The notes under the pieces are model-generated. The model made no database searches, was not told the origin of the DNA, and saw only the letters and a list, made by a program, of their open reading frames with translations. Shown here piece after piece: positions 21,497 to 27,217 of a stretch of 34,017 nucleotides of DNA. Each line of letters starts with the position of its first letter. Within the stretch, counting starts at the first letter, position 1. Source of the stretch: a virus; IMG/VR virus record IMGVR_UViG_3300000115_000023, positions 15,810 through 49,826 of that record. One strand, 5' to 3'. The position numbers and the translations under genes were made by a program.

Positions 21497-21641
21497 ATCT
21501 CATTTCATTTTGAATTACTATTAGTCTAACGACTTGTCGCTTGAGTGAAGACAAGTCTTTGCGTTGGACTGCTATCTGAGCCTCTAACAGTTCTGACTTG
21601 GCTTCTAAGACTCGGAGGGAGTCCTTTGTGTTCGAATCCAT
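21435..21641 (-). CDS. Small coiled-coil protein overlapping the DnaA-like gene
   Basis: 68 residues. LRVLEAKSELLEAQIAVQRK continues into a heptad-patterned helix (about 9-45), then a Gly-rich tail. Its first 116 bases overlap, in another frame, the end of the DnaA-like gene, whose tail there looks low in structure. The coil reads more like a real protein than the overlapping tail does. The function is unknown; coils of this kind often act in oligomerisation. Confidence 0.6.
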   Translation of the reverse strand: MDSNTKDSLRVLEAKSELLEAQIAVQRKDLSSLKRQVVRLIVIQNEMRYDKKMGRSVGHGTGDGNIED

Positions 21642-22020
21642 GTTTAGTTAGTTTAGATTCTGCTTCTTCTAAGCATTTGTGATAAATCTGGTAAAAAGAC
21701 CTGTCCACTTTGAGCAGGTCTTGGGTGGTTTTAACGTGATGTATTACAGTAGAATGATGCCTATTCATGACCTTACCTATAATCTTGAGCCTGTGCCATA
21801 AGAGCTCTCTAGATATAGAGGAGAATATCATTCTAGCTGTTACTATGTCATTTGATTTATGCTTAGAGGAGAACTCTTGCTCAGTAACTTGAGTGTAGTG
21901 AAGTACTACACCTAGTACACAACTGAGCTCACCTTTCTCGTAAGTATTAACCATGACGATTTCTTGCCGCTGCTCGTAACCGAGACCAGCAAATGTTTGA
22001 GGGTGTACTACATGCTTCAT
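21526..22020 (-). CDS. DnaA domain-IV-like DNA-binding protein
   Basis: 164 residues. Residues about 57-110 (VTARMIFSSISRELL, then IGKVMNRHHSTVIHHVK) match the helix-turn-helix and HSTVIH-type signature of DnaA domain IV, which binds DnaA boxes. No AAA+ P-loop is visible, so this is a stand-alone DNA-binding domain and might mark a phage origin or act as a regulator. The last 35 or so residues overlap the coiled-coil gene and may be non-essential. The ATG lies 16 bases after the tRNA(CAU) 3' end. Confidence 0.75.
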   Translation of the reverse strand: MKHVVHPQTFAGLGYEQRQEIVMVNTYEKGELSCVLGVVLHYTQVTEQEFSSKHKSNDIVTARMIFSSISRELLWHRLKIIGKVMNRHHSTVIHHVKTTQDLLKVDRSFYQIYHKCLEEAESKLTKHGFEHKGLPPSLRSQVRTVRGSDSSPTQRLVFTQATSR

Positions 22021-22036
22021 AAATTTTAGGGATGTG

Positions 22037-22109
22037 TGCGCCTGGTAGGACTTGAACCTACGACCTGCCGATTATGAGTCGGATGCTCTAACCACTGAGC
22101 TACAAGCGC
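22037..22109 (-). tRNA. tRNA with CAU anticodon (Met or Ile2)
   Basis: It folds as a 73-base cloverleaf: acceptor GCGCTTG/CAGGCGC, D-stem GCTC/GAGC with loop AGTGGTTA, anticodon loop CTCATAA, T-arm GTAGG TTCAAGT CCTAC and discriminator A. No CCA is encoded. The D-arm and loop resemble bacterial tRNA-Ile2 (lysidine-modified CAU) as much as elongator tRNA-Met; identity cannot be settled by eye. The anticodon stem has a T-C mismatch at 27-43. Confidence 0.93.
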
Positions 22110-22390: not shown

Positions 22391-22404
22391 TACAAACATT
22401 TTTG

Positions 22405-22478
22405 TACTCCCGGCGGGACTCGAACCCACAACCTACAGCTTAGAAGGCTGTTGCACTATCCGGTTGTGCTACGGGAGC
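22405..22478 (-). tRNA. tRNA-Arg (UCU anticodon)
   Basis: A 74-base cloverleaf: acceptor GCTCCCG/CGGGAGT (G1-T72 wobble), D-stem GCAC/GTGC with GG in the loop, anticodon stem ACAGC/GCTGT with loop CTTCTAA, T-arm GTGGG TTCGAGT CCCGC and discriminator A. No CCA is encoded. It reads AGA (and AGG by wobble), codons that the neighbouring phage genes use freely. Confidence 0.95.
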
Positions 22479-22485
22479 TACCTGA

Positions 22486-22737
22486 TTACTTCTTAGGCTT
22501 CAGCCTTGTCTCGAGCTGAAACTTAGTGTAATCAATCGTAGTGATCTTGGTGATGATATAAATCTTCTTGTTCCCCTCGAACTCAGTCTCCTCAAGCTTC
22601 ATCTCATCCCCAATACGCTTAGTATACGTAGGCTGCTTAAGACCATCACGGATAGTCTCGTACAAACCTGCGTGAGCACCGTCATTGTCTTCAATAGAGA
22701 AGACAGCACCCATAATAGTATCAAATGTTTTCTTCAT
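22486..22737 (-). CDS. Small hypothetical protein after DNA polymerase
   Basis: 83 residues from the ATG at 22737, overlapping the polymerase stop by 4 bases (ATGA). KKTFDTIMGAVFSIEDNDG begins a mixed alpha/beta sequence, and the C-terminal half alternates as beta strands (KKIYIITKITTIDYTKFQLE) and ends in KPKK. No family recognised. Tight coupling to the polymerase suggests co-regulation and perhaps a replication accessory role. Confidence 0.75.
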   Translation of the reverse strand: MKKTFDTIMGAVFSIEDNDGAHAGLYETIRDGLKQPTYTKRIGDEMKLEETEFEGNKKIYIITKITTIDYTKFQLETRLKPKK

Positions 22738-24590
22738 TTTTCCCAAGTTTCTGAAATATTAGTGTCTGCTTTAAGCAAACCATTAGGTATAATCTTAAGA
22801 GCTGCTTTTTCCATCAGCTCTGTCATCTTAATTGCCCAGTCATCTGCTACCTCACTCTTGCAGATAGTATCTATCTGGTCGTGGACAGTCATTACAATCT
22901 TTACATCATTCTTCCAATTAGCTTGTATCTCATCATAGATATATATGAGAGCAAGCTTAGTCATGTCAGCACTAGATCCTTGGATAGGGGTATTCTTACT
23001 TGCTCGTTCAATACTACCGAGCTCAGTCATCATACTCCTGTCATTCCAAATCTTTGGGTACCAAGTATCAAAGTTCCTCCTGCGCTTGAACGGTGGCATC
23101 GTAATGATGTAACCGTGCTGCTTCCCAAAGTCACCAAGCTTCTGTAAGAATGACTTGATGTTAGGGAAGGCATTGAAGTACTTCTCAATCAACTGTTCAG
23201 CTTCTGACTTACTTATATTAAGTGTGTCAGCGAGCTTAAAGGGCCCCATTCCATATGCCAACCCGAAATTGATTGTTTTGATTGTTGTGCGAAGGGTCTT
23301 ACGAAGGTCGTCTCCAGCTTCCCTCCATCTTTGTTCAAATACGAGATCTGCACATACTCCATGCAAATCGGCTCCTTTTCTAAGAGCCTCGAGCCAAACT
23401 GGATCTCTACTTCCATATGCTATGACGTTTAATTCCTGTGAAGCGTAATCTGAGGAGACAAAGACCCATCCGGACGGAGCAACGAAACAGTTTCTAAAGG
23501 TATTATCACTGGGTATCTGCTGCATGTTCGGCTTGGAACTCGACACTCTCCCAGTATCCAAGATCTGTGAGAAATTTGTGTGGACTCTCCCATCGCAATT
23601 AATGTAGTTGAAGAACTTGGTACCGTAAGCTGAGGCAAGCTTTGTCCTTTCTTTATACAATATATATTCATCAATCAATTTGTGTTTGTACCTGTGTTTG
23701 CTGAGCTTCTTGCCGTTGACATCCTCAAGCTTGGGTACGAGTAATCTAAATAACTGTAAGGTTTGCATTGGGGAGCTCCAGTTTATGGAGGTCTTACGCA
23801 ATTCCTCTGCAGGAGTAAACATGTCGGCTTGTATAGGGGTAGCATACTTCACTTTTAGCAAAGGATGTTCCAATACAAGCTTATCTAAGTGTAACTCTTG
23901 CTCTCGTGCCAGCTTGACATTGTTTTCTGCCATAACTGTCCATTTGTCCTCATCAATCATGAGGCCCTCGTACTCTATCTCTGCAAATACCTTGACTACT
24001 TTGTTTTCGAGCTCGCTAACCATCTCAAGCCCAATCTCACGTAGCTGCTCTTTTTGAGCTTTCCATATGTCAATGAGATAGACAACATCCTTAGCACCGT
24101 AGGTAATTTGATCGACAGTAAACGGCGTTCCATGTAAGTTGACGAATTTATTTCTCGTTGTCTTGTCCAGAATGTCACCGCAATACCTCTCAACACAGTT
24201 GAGAAGGGAATAGCCGTAGTCTTGTTTACCACAATGAAGAACTCTCTCGGCCAAGTAAGTATCATATATGTTTTCAACCTCGATTCTTCCCCATCTCTTA
24301 ATAAACTTGTAATCGAACTTTGAGTTGTGGAAGATTTTGACGATGTCTTTATCTTCAAGTATTGCTCTAAGGGGTTCGAGGGAGGTGTCTCTTGCATCTA
24401 TTACGTATTGTCGGTTTTTGTCACCAATCTGAAACATAAGCAATTTCTTGCAGGTGAAGTCAAAGCCCTCGGTCTCAGTATCAACACCGAGGACTGACTT
24501 CCCACTACAATATGACACGCACTCCTCAATCGTCGCCGTCTGGACCTCGTTCAGCAAACTCGTTTGACCTACTAATCTTATCGTTTTCAT
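22734..24590 (-). CDS. DNA polymerase, family A, with 3'-5' exonuclease
   Basis: 618 residues. Exonuclease motifs: DTETEG (37-42), HNSKFDYKF (88-96, Asp93) and YGAKDVVYL (164-172, Asp168). Polymerase motifs: A, DYASQELNV (381-389, with Ala-Ser in place of the usual Ser-Gln spacing but Glu kept); B, the O-helix R434-x3-K438 leading to NFGLAYG (441-447); C, VHDQID (569-574), with Gln where Glu is usual. There is no 5'-nuclease domain; the separate FEN gene supplies that. This is the replicative enzyme of the phage. It overlaps the upstream small gene by 65 bases. Confidence 0.96.
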   Translation of the reverse strand: MKTIRLVGQTSLLNEVQTATIEECVSYCSGKSVLGVDTETEGFDFTCKKLLMFQIGDKNRQYVIDARDTSLEPLRAILEDKDIVKIFHNSKFDYKFIKRWGRIEVENIYDTYLAERVLHCGKQDYGYSLLNCVERYCGDILDKTTRNKFVNLHGTPFTVDQITYGAKDVVYLIDIWKAQKEQLREIGLEMVSELENKVVKVFAEIEYEGLMIDEDKWTVMAENNVKLAREQELHLDKLVLEHPLLKVKYATPIQADMFTPAEELRKTSINWSSPMQTLQLFRLLVPKLEDVNGKKLSKHRYKHKLIDEYILYKERTKLASAYGTKFFNYINCDGRVHTNFSQILDTGRVSSSKPNMQQIPSDNTFRNCFVAPSGWVFVSSDYASQELNVIAYGSRDPVWLEALRKGADLHGVCADLVFEQRWREAGDDLRKTLRTTIKTINFGLAYGMGPFKLADTLNISKSEAEQLIEKYFNAFPNIKSFLQKLGDFGKQHGYIITMPPFKRRRNFDTWYPKIWNDRSMMTELGSIERASKNTPIQGSSADMTKLALIYIYDEIQANWKNDVKIVMTVHDQIDTICKSEVADDWAIKMTELMEKAALKIIPNGLLKADTNISETWEK

Positions 24591-25581: not shown

Positions 25582-26181
25582 TCAGCTGTTGATTCCTCCA
25601 GACTGCGCAGCAAACTGCTGGGTCAAGTCTGGCATCGCTGGCTTAGCCTGAGGCTCACCAGCAATAAACTTGTGTTCACAGCTGCCTGCAAGCACAAGAT
25701 CTGTGTGACGATACACAGGCATCTGTGTACCAGTCAATGGGTTAGTCGCAACAACCACTTCTTTGGTTGAAGGATTAACCTTTGGTGTCTGCGTCTTCGA
25801 ACGAGGATTCTTCTCGAAGTTCTCAGTCACCTGAATGGAGAGCTGAGTATCGGCAGGAAGGCCGAGTCTTTGATAGAAATCCTCAGCCATCATTACAGGA
25901 CTACCCATAGTAGCGTCACCTTCACGTGACCCAAGGATAGCCGATGCTTTGTTAGCTTCGAACGAACGCAGAGCGGTAACACGAGTAACATTACCAAGAG
26001 ACTCAGTGCCTTGCTCCAAACTAATCAACACAGAGTTGGCAGCGCTCGCATTTTCCGGACGCTCCACTTCCTGTTGGAATTGGACAGACATTTGATTCTT
26101 GGTGCTGTTCGTATTGAACCACCACTTACGGATGACAACTTTGCCTGTTGTCAAGGCTTGATCATAAGCAGGATTTGCCAT
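25582..26181 (-). CDS. Insulated, probably abundant phage protein of unknown function
   Basis: 199 residues, soluble, no membrane segment. The sequence is rich in Ala, Thr, Gln and Val with beta-strand rhythm (KVVIRKWWFN; QLSIQVTENFEKNP; VYRHTDLVLAG) and a flexible C-terminus (LTQQFAAQSGGINS). No family recognised. A terminator hairpin lies just upstream and a large hairpin just downstream, so it appears to be its own transcription unit, which with its codon choice suggests high expression (inference). A second nucleic-acid-binding or early regulatory protein is possible. Confidence 0.82.
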   Translation of the reverse strand: MANPAYDQALTTGKVVIRKWWFNTNSTKNQMSVQFQQEVERPENASAANSVLISLEQGTESLGNVTRVTALRSFEANKASAILGSREGDATMGSPVMMAEDFYQRLGLPADTQLSIQVTENFEKNPRSKTQTPKVNPSTKEVVVATNPLTGTQMPVYRHTDLVLAGSCEHKFIAGEPQAKPAMPDLTQQFAAQSGGINS

Positions 26182-26188
26182 GATAAAA

Positions 26189-26228
26189 GTAAATAAAAGA
26201 AAAGTGGGGACACTTGATGGTAGTCCCC
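26189..26228 (-). terminator. Terminator in front of the 199-residue gene
   Basis: On the minus strand GGGGAC pairs with GTCCCC around an 11-base loop and is followed by the T-rich run ACTTTTCTTTTATTT. It follows the coiled-coil gene (stop at 26253), and its T-rich tail forms most of the leader of the next gene (ATG 26181). Confidence 0.75.
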
Positions 26229-26252
26229 GACACCAATATCATTTTCGCTGAG

Positions 26253-26537
26253 TCAACCCCAACGAAGTCTCTTAGCCTTACTGCTACGAAGACTAATGTT
26301 TGCTTTCTGCTCTTGCTGCTTCAACTTGATGACCTTGTCTTTGCAGTTATTGAATTTGACAAGAGTCTGACCTTTGTGGCTTGAATTGTGAGCCAGCTGA
26401 TCAACAAGGTTGCTATCACTACCATCTGCAATAAGCTGTCGTGCAATACGACTGATGTTCTTATTGTGCATGTCAATACTGATTGCAAGTGACTCGATTT
26501 GCTTCTCTAAAGATTCTATTTCGTCTCTGTATCTCAT
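26253..26537 (-). CDS. Small coiled-coil protein
   Basis: 94 residues from the ATG at 26537; the frame extends upstream through the tRNA-like element only by non-ATG codons, so the shorter start is chosen. RYRDEIESLEKQIESLAISI (2-21) starts a clear coiled coil. The C-terminal half is basic (VIKLKQQEQKANISLRSSKA, then KRLRWG), fit for nucleic-acid binding. Function unknown. A tRNA-like structure ends about 21 bases upstream. Confidence 0.75.
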   Translation of the reverse strand: MRYRDEIESLEKQIESLAISIDMHNKNISRIARQLIADGSDSNLVDQLAHNSSHKGQTLVKFNNCKDKVIKLKQQEQKANISLRSSKAKRLRWG

Positions 26538-26558
26538 CTTGTAGGTAATTAATAATAG

Positions 26559-26640
26559 AGCACAGTGTGGAATCGAACCACATAAGCATTTTGTAATCCA
26601 TTCTTGACCAAATGAAATGCTTATCAAACCTGACTGTGCA
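26559..26640 (-). ncRNA. tRNA-like element lacking a D-stem
   Basis: On the minus strand GCACAG and CTGTGC form an acceptor-like stem (T-T mismatch at the outer pair). Next to it is a standard T-arm, TGTGG TTCGATT CCACA. There is no D-stem: the joint is a 9-base TCAGGTTTG containing GG. In place of the anticodon arm is a perfect 10-bp stem ATAAGCATTT/AAATGCTTAT closed by a 23-base loop. This resembles the tRNA-like domain of tmRNA or a viral tRNA-like structure more than a working tRNA; a decayed tRNA is the alternative. Confidence 0.55.
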
Positions 26641-26905
26641 GAAGCGAGAGTGTGCACCGTGCCCGTAGGCGCCATCAACGGCTACACACTCCCTAACTAT
26701 GACTATGCAGTGCAAGCTGGCACCGGTACGCTGAATATGAATCATGCTTTAGAACGTACGCTGGGCATGACTATGTCGACGCAGCAATGAGTCGTCACTC
26801 AATGCCACTTCCCATTACTGGGCACGTTTAAGACGCACTCAATACTCTACCGCGTTTTGGGTAAAGCAAGACCTATTCGTCAATAGGTAGGCGACAAAAT
26901 GACTT
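26641..26905 (-). ncRNA. Gene-poor structured stretch, possible non-coding RNA
   Basis: About 265 bases without a convincing gene, more GC-rich than the surroundings. Minus-strand hairpins seen: ACCTATT-GACG-AATAGGT (26871-26888); TGAGT-GACG-ACTCA; CCCA-GTAA-TGGG; GTACG/CGTAC; and a 7-bp closing stem GAGTGTG/CACACTC enclosing GCC-GTTGAT-GGC. It leads straight into the tRNA-like element. A plus-strand 57-codon frame (26617-26790) is the only sizeable small reading frame I noted. Confidence 0.4.
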
Positions 26906-27094
26906 TCACTTCAACAAAGTTGCAGTGAAAATGTACTGACTAAAGTCAGCCAAGCGACACTGAGACTTTGCAATCTCAATAGCCTTGACCTTTGACTTTT
27001 CCAATCTGTTATCGTCAGTAATAACAATTTGGAATGGAGCGGTGTACCCATTAACGTGGGTAGTCTCTACTCGCCACTTACGTAGCTTACTCAT
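26906..27094 (-). CDS. Small basic hypothetical protein
   Basis: 62 residues from the ATG at 27094. SKLRKWRVETTHVNGYTAPF then QIVITDDNRLEKSKVKAIEI reads as a beta-beta-alpha unit with basic ends. No family recognised. The start overlaps the stop of a 6-codon minigene (ATGA), itself coupled to a 9-codon minigene, a chain that looks like translational coupling in a leader. Confidence 0.65.
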   Translation of the reverse strand: MSKLRKWRVETTHVNGYTAPFQIVITDDNRLEKSKVKAIEIAKSQCRLADFSQYIFTATLLK

Positions 27095-27137
27095 GAAGAG
27101 CAAGCAGTCATGGCGAACCTCGTGTCTGTTTATTCAT
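27091..27137 (-). other. Two coupled minigenes (9 and 6 codons) leading into the 62-residue gene
   Basis: Minus strand: ATG at 27137 gives MNKQTRGSP and stops in an ATGA at 27111-27108. That ATG gives MTACSS and stops in another ATGA at 27094-27091, whose ATG starts the 62-residue gene. These may be leader peptides or chance; the double overlap is unusual. Confidence 0.35.
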
Positions 27138-27142
27138 TGTGT

Positions 27143-27217
27143 TTACAAATTTATGACGATGATTACAAGGAGCACAATGGCTCCCTGTATCATCAAGACT
27201 GCTGTTGACCTTCTCAT
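27143..27217 (-). CDS. 24-residue single-pass membrane peptide
   Basis: The minus-strand ATG at 27217 overlaps the TGA of the zinc-ribbon gene as ATGA. It encodes a basic start (MRRST) and a continuous hydrophobic helix (LMIQGAIVLLVIIVINL). The exact 4-base overlap and the clean one-helix sequence argue for a real gene. The function could be membrane disturbance or interaction with a host membrane protein, but this is not known. Confidence 0.6.
   Translation of the reverse strand: MRRSTAVLMIQGAIVLLVIIVINL
27146..27153 (-). promoter_or_regulatory. Candidate -7 element (TAAATTTG)
   Basis: The minus strand reads TAAATTTG, a TAnnTTTG match, at the end of the 24-residue membrane peptide gene and 8 bases before the first minigene ATG. 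No -33 TTTG is evident; support is positional only. Confidence 0.3.

Follow-up and report, generated by a model that had tools for sequence, protein, structure and literature searches.

The stretch of DNA that we analyzed (34,017 nucleotides), referred to here as the window, comes from a virus record of 60,223 bases. The terminase of this virus most resembles those of gut crAss-like phages (43% to cr52_1). crAss-like phages are some of the most abundant viruses of the human gut, yet to our knowledge little is known about how they organize the transcripts of replication genes. The minus strand carries an 82-nt tRNA-like element that lacks an anticodon (26559..26640); the parts of this element and the features around it are as follows:

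26634..26640, minus strand: 5′ strand of the acceptor stem, TGCACAG, partner of 26559-26565
26624..26633, minus strand: D-arm remnant TCAGGTTTGA, 3 bp and a loop with GG; pairing support low in the window copy
26615..26624, minus strand: 5′ strand of the long stem, ATAAGCATTT, standing in place of the anticodon arm
26592..26614, minus strand: apical part, 23 nt, CATTTGGTCAAGAATGGATTACA, carrying the ATTYGGTCA motif
26582..26591, minus strand: 3′ strand of the long stem, AAATGCTTAT, the final base of which is also counted in the T-stem
26566..26582, minus strand: T-arm, TGTGG-TTCGATT-CCACA
26559..26565, minus strand: 3′ strand of the acceptor stem, CTGTGCT; CCA not encoded
26538..26558, minus strand: spacer CTATTATTAATTACCTACAAG, 21 nt, from the element to an ATG
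26253..26537, minus strand: 94-aa ORF downstream of the element, its ATG 21 nt past it
25582..26181, minus strand: conserved phage protein of 199 aa, downstream of the element, used as the anchor for synteny
22734..24590, minus strand: family A DNA polymerase, transcribed the same way as the element
22404..22478, minus strand: canonical tRNA-Arg(TCT)
22036..22109, minus strand: canonical tRNA-Met(CAT), ∼17 nt ahead of the ATG of a 164-aa ORF
21526..22020, minus strand: the 164-aa ORF behind the tRNA-Met slot, conserved among relatives

Read 5′ to 3′, the RNA of the element is TGCACAG-TCAGGTTTG-ATAAGCATTT-[23 nt]-AAATGCTTA-TGTGG-TTCGATT-CCACA-CTGTGCT, and its T-arm sequence occurs only once in the whole window. 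An odd tRNA-like RNA with a T-arm and an acceptor stem had originally been predicted at this place; it is real, and the sequence confirmed both its coordinates and its pairing. The 7-bp acceptor and 5-bp T-stem with a TTCRANY loop that mark a tRNA are present save for a T·T at pair 1, so the acceptor, which had been said to pair, has six canonical pairs; the seventh is present in some relatives. A 10-bp stem with a 23-base loop had also been described. The long stem is there, but its pair 10 borrows the first base of the 5-bp T-stem (giving either 10 + 4 or 9 + 5), and the loop can itself form an inner hairpin, CATT-TGGTCAAG-AATG, in the MFE fold. The D-stem, reported as missing, is better described as reduced: a 3-bp TCA-GGTT-TGA is possible in the window copy, and with a GG-loop mini-hairpin present in most copies, the D-arm appears degenerate rather than cleanly absent. 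The window copy contains no 5-bp anticodon arm with a 7-nt loop and U33. Its acceptor pair 3 is C-G, so it lacks the G3-U70 alanine pair of tmRNA, and we detected no tag ORF, pseudoknots, or tmRNA model match for it; the likeness to the tRNA-like half of tmRNA suggested in the original prediction is therefore superficial. By the defining features of either class, the window element is neither a tRNA nor a tmRNA.

Judged by fold energy alone, the element stands out only moderately (z = −2.4; equally good folds in 5 of 200 shuffles). Its score with an acceptor and T-arm descriptor exceeded those of 1000 out of 1000 shuffles of the surrounding 150-nt region, and scores of at least 17 never arose in 428 kb of shuffled related loci. 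ARAGORN missed the element and reported tRNA-Met and tRNA-Arg in the window, nothing else; Rfam at gathering cutoffs returned the same two tRNAs and no family (including RF00005) at the element. A permissive Rfam search gave sub-threshold matches to tRNA-Sec (17.7 bits; gathering 47) and to permuted tmRNA RF04321 (14 bits; cutoff 47). No DNA similarity to the window region was found in the phage collection. Two other origins were rejected. Coding sequence was considered because ORFs at 26253-26678 (TTG) and 26473-26745 (ATG) cross the element; relatives have indels, and by eye the frames are unconserved. A remnant of attP or of tRNA-targeted integration would have no need of the 5′ acceptor strand, which is present and compensated.

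To gather relatives, we used two markers, the DNA polymerase and the downstream 199-aa gene. An element stands at the same place upstream of the 199-aa gene in L020, L006/L010, L005, L009, L042, L043, and L097, and two loci found by pattern (L026 and L027) carry the same kind of element. The acceptor pairs through sequence change (GCACAG/CTGTGC, ACACAG/CTGTGT, and, in L042, L043, and L097, AGTGCG/CGCACT), as does the T-stem (TGTGG/CCACA in the window, TGCGG/CCGCA in L020, CGAGG/CCTCG in L009, and GAAGG/CCTTC in L042); the long stem is altered in L020 (TACATACA/TGTATGTA) with pairing retained. The D-arm position reads TCATGGTGA in L026, ACTTTGGTAAGT in L005, CTCACTGGTGTGAG in L009 and L027, and CATTGGCGTG in L042, and a D-arm with a GG loop is clearer in L005, L009, and cr60_1 than in the window. 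The apical ATTYGGTCA motif is common to the window, L020, and L026. As possibilities, the GG of the D-like loop might make an elbow contact, and YGGT might pair with a CCA end. The middle of the element differs in almost every phage, even though the close ones have 86–96% identical DNA polymerases.

We counted pairs by script, using as controls 3′ strands shuffled among elements (partner shuffle). Upstream of the 199-aa gene, 81 of 84 pairs formed, a count that alone is not above its best partner shuffle. The gut polymerase and primase set gave 93 of 96, against a fraction of 0.54 in partner shuffles (maximum 0.88). For 21 distinct further elements the count was 242 of 252 against 0.59 (maximum 0.70), a figure that is partly circular in that the descriptor itself selects pairing, the synteny-anchored sets being the cleaner evidence. 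Conservation of the pairing in related phages, which had been named as a check on the original prediction, is thus found, and the idea that the RNA mimics a tRNA in a manner suited to RNase P and RNase Z is well supported, the acceptor and T-arm being the conserved, compensated parts. The next ATG follows the element after 21 nt in the window and L010 and after 17 nt in L020 and L026; the ORFs that follow are different and look unrelated, and a search for relatives of the window’s 94-aa ORF found none. Upstream of the element, a block at 26646-27210 (minus strand) is 84–95% conserved in pieces in L005, L006, L009, and L020 and is mostly without a convincing ORF. Ahead of the 199-aa gene, a conserved hairpin, GGGGACTACCATCAAGTGTCCCC, followed by a T-rich stretch (window 26181-26250, minus strand; also in L004, L005, L020, and L035) resembles a terminator or a leader.

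A scan of 102 loci, extended by gut and flavobacterial phages, yielded ∼40 distinct non-canonical elements (45–123 nt) with scores of at least 17, nearly all of them missed by ARAGORN; a few hits, in L108, L119, L050, and L052 (5262), were dropped as chance matches in coding sequence. Most relatives lack a 7-nt anticodon loop with U33 or lack any anticodon arm. Some genomes have two or three elements, and L042 has three, two of them only 4 nt apart. In a set that includes the gut-phage elements, 17 of 41 lie 16–23 nt before an ORF; many environmental elements are not located 15–24 nt ahead of an ORF and are less tied to starts. The elements of two cultured phages, phi14:2 (Cellulophaga baltica) and Panino (Maribacter), show eight compensated pairs, with differences at 17 of 46 helix positions versus 3 of 45 unpaired ones. 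One stretch that they conserve, GTAAA-TTCAACA-TAAAC, might represent a weak tRNA-Leu(CAA) anticodon arm, in which case this copy may be a deviant tRNA and not an anticodon-less element. A genome scan with the phi14:2 pattern gave no matches, and a scan of viral contigs with a Buchavirus pattern gave one locus, equal in length to cr60_1. Among open-licence papers, we found no published description of such elements in crAss-like phages. One 136-kb viral contig (L022) carries a tmRNA and then two non-canonical tRNA-like elements (1697-2093, 2353-2446, and 2744-2853).

Position was compared in 12 gut Suoliviridae records, using the starts of all ORFs of at least 100 aa and elements scoring at least 16.3. 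A tRNA or tRNA-like element ends 15–22 nt before the start codon of 19 of the 24 DNA polymerase and primase genes and of 1 of 314 other ORFs (Fisher 1.5e-25, nominal since the genomes are related). When the first 11 polymerase and primase regions were tested, nine beat all 1000 shuffles. Several of the other five genes look similar by eye, with altered T-loops (TGCAAGT at the cr10_1 primase; TGCAAAC at the cr7_1 polymerase), and a 13th genome, cr60_1, has the same polymerase element. At the polymerase, cr115_1 has a canonical tRNA-Arg(TCT) in the slot, cr1_1 a tRNA-Val(CAC), and cr53_1 a doubtful tRNA-His; the remaining polymerase slots hold non-decoding forms. The form in cr60_1, cr109_1, and cr52_1 is a 57–58-nt RNA that retains the acceptor, D-arm, and T-arm but has a linker of 8 nt where the anticodon arm would be; a comparison of cr60_1 with cr52_1 shows compensation in the acceptor and T-stem. 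Upstream of its polymerase, L049 carries a normal tRNA-Arg(ACG). In the window’s clade, the corresponding slot lies ∼16–18 nt before a conserved gene that follows the polymerase and holds tRNA-Met in most members; L050 has a tRNA-Arg there, 29 nt before the gene, and in L006/L010 the tRNA-Met is displaced upstream by a tRNA with a short anticodon loop. That tRNA (L006 5785-5857; L010 11147-11219) is otherwise canonical, with a loop of 4 to 6 nt (ARAGORN anticodon “ga”). No element was found upstream of polymerase or primase in Steigviridae (cr108_1 and cr111_1) or Fpv3, or upstream of the phi14:2 primase; evidence for the polymerase/primase pattern is confined to Suoliviridae and, in a shifted version, to the window’s clade. 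The elements are widespread, unannotated tRNA look-alikes without the decoding end, placed ∼20 bases before genes, above all those for DNA polymerase and primase.

From the constant position, the exchange between isoacceptors and non-decoding forms, and the retention of acceptor and T-arm only, we infer a role in cis in RNA processing. Our favored reading, of moderate confidence, is that the element acts in cis within a polycistronic phage transcript as a tRNA-like signal for processing, akin to tRNA punctuation or to t-elements. An acceptor stem, T-stem, and T-loop alone form a model substrate that RNase P cuts (PMC11143913), and the window element contains that minimal module. In the proposed scheme of cleavage, enzymes, and effect on expression, host RNase P would recognize the acceptor/T-arm stack and cut on the 5′ side, and RNase Z or exonucleases would cut on the 3′ side. 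The next mRNA would be left with a short (15–22 nt), unstructured leader suiting host initiation, in related phages that of DNA polymerase, DNA primase, or neighboring replication genes, with ordinary tRNAs occupying such slots in some phages. With no need to decode, the anticodon domain would be free to drift or vanish while the acceptor and T-arm stayed under selection. Spacing alone is no proof, because canonical tRNAs in compact operons are spaced similarly. The window element precedes a relative-less ORF that is neither polymerase nor primase, which counts against the processing reading, as do the many environmental elements lying elsewhere than 15–24 nt ahead of an ORF and tandem elements such as the three in L042, which are more than punctuation needs. 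Conserved unpaired parts (ATTYGGTCA; phi14:2 versus Panino) suggest an added role or, in phi14:2/Panino, a deviant tRNA-Leu.

The closest functional parallel, by analogy, is with the t-elements at plant mitochondrial mRNA ends: these tRNA-like structures, also without an encoded CCA, are cut by RNase P and RNase Z and CCA-tailed and are not aminoacylated (PMC11658184). As in t-elements and tRNA punctuation, the phage structures sit at a fixed short distance from a reading frame (21 nt in the window; 19 of 24 gut Suoliviridae polymerase and primase genes), and functional tRNAs are interchangeable at the same place. t-Elements derive from organellar tRNA genes, a descent that is implausible here because of the phage context, and the phage elements, for which cleavage is inferred, lie 15–22 nt before replication-gene starts in the gut phages and often lack the whole anticodon arm. 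In mitochondria, intergenic tRNAs likewise set mRNA ends by excision; those tRNAs are mostly functional, whereas the phage elements are non-decoding and interchangeable with tRNAs. The look-alikes would by this analogy probably mark cut sites that divide a long phage transcript into separate messages. The tRNA-like domain of tmRNA shares the acceptor and T-arm, a reduced D-arm, and a long helix instead of the anticodon arm, but the phage elements (45–123 nt) have no tag frame, pseudoknots, or G3-U70 pair. Phage transcripts have been described as substrates of host RNase P (M3 RNA, C4 antisense RNA, and T4 tRNA precursors; PMC11143913), the role proposed here; the RNAs listed in that paper are not presented as recurrent tRNA-like leaders before polymerase and primase. 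Canonical tRNAs of crAss-like phages, such as the crAss001 array, share the slots, the acceptor and T-arm, the unencoded CCA, and a similar CTA/CAA trailer and differ in possessing a decoding anticodon arm. crAss001 also has an unannotated, apparently canonical tRNA-Tyr(GTA) with a long variable arm that ARAGORN missed (L122 4141-4234).

The same spacing of 15–22 nt and the same polymerase/primase specificity would be expected of a leader that is never cut, a 5′ structure insulating or regulating the next start, to which a tRNA-binding protein of phage or host perhaps attaches. Loop motifs conserved in part of the set would fit such a leader, but apart from these motifs the inside of the element is hypervariable, which a protein operator would not be, and cleavage must occur at least at the tRNA-filled slots because the genuine tRNAs there have to be excised to function. 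We regard this alternative as unlikely. Somewhat less likely again is a decoy acting in trans, in which an excised, stable mimic without an anticodon loop would titrate or resist host tRNA-targeting nucleases or toxins that bind the acceptor or elbow. Conservation of the acceptor, T-arm, and GG-bearing D-like loop beside a hypervariable anticodon domain would suit a decoy, as would several copies per phage, and a role in trans stays conceivable because of the tandem copies and the conserved loops of some members. It does not predict a fixed placement 15–22 nt before polymerase and primase start codons, however, or explain replacement by assorted canonical tRNAs at the same slot.

Canonical tRNAs in the same slots, such as the tRNA-Arg(ACG) of L049, could hint that the elements are functionless remnants of phage tRNA genes that lost the anticodon first; we consider this improbable, since dozens of elements keep the acceptor and T-stem by compensation, where decay would break these equally often, and the elements are present at 19 of 24 polymerase and primase genes across the sampled Suoliviridae genera. 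Still active translation by a deviant tRNA or tmRNA would accord with near-canonical acceptor/T geometry (12 stacked pairs), a D-like loop, and the perhaps odd tRNA-Leu(CAA) of phi14:2/Panino, but it is the least probable reading, given that the window copy and most relatives lack either a U33-bearing anticodon loop of 7 nt or the whole arm, that there is no tag ORF, and that the ARAGORN and Rfam searches were negative.

Returning to processing in cis, we lean, a little less firmly than for the element itself, toward a broader proposal: Suoliviridae and environmental relatives would possess a class of tRNA-like leader RNAs, undescribed and without an anticodon, that stay a fixed distance ahead of polymerase and primase and through which the phage would employ the tRNA maturation enzymes of its host to excise, and perhaps to time, the mRNAs of replication genes. 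A recurrent mark of this kind would amount to a t-element-like system of phages. It would account for the retention, at fixed places, of phage tRNA genes that appear useless, and it would imply that a class of phage RNAs escapes tRNA finders.

Two further features were noted in related phages. A RAGATH-20 RNA (Rfam RF03048, 119.6 bits) adjoins an annotated tmRNA in cr52_1 (L124 32378-32480, minus strand). Upstream of the polymerase operon, ∼2 kb are without annotated genes in cr52_1, cr4_1, cr10_1, and Fpv3 (L124 24703-26813, L137 25882-28030, L138 18886-20963, and L126 36998-39328), with similar gaps in cr53_1, cr114_1, cr1_1, cr6_1, cr273_1, and cr56_1; this stretch is possibly a large non-coding RNA.
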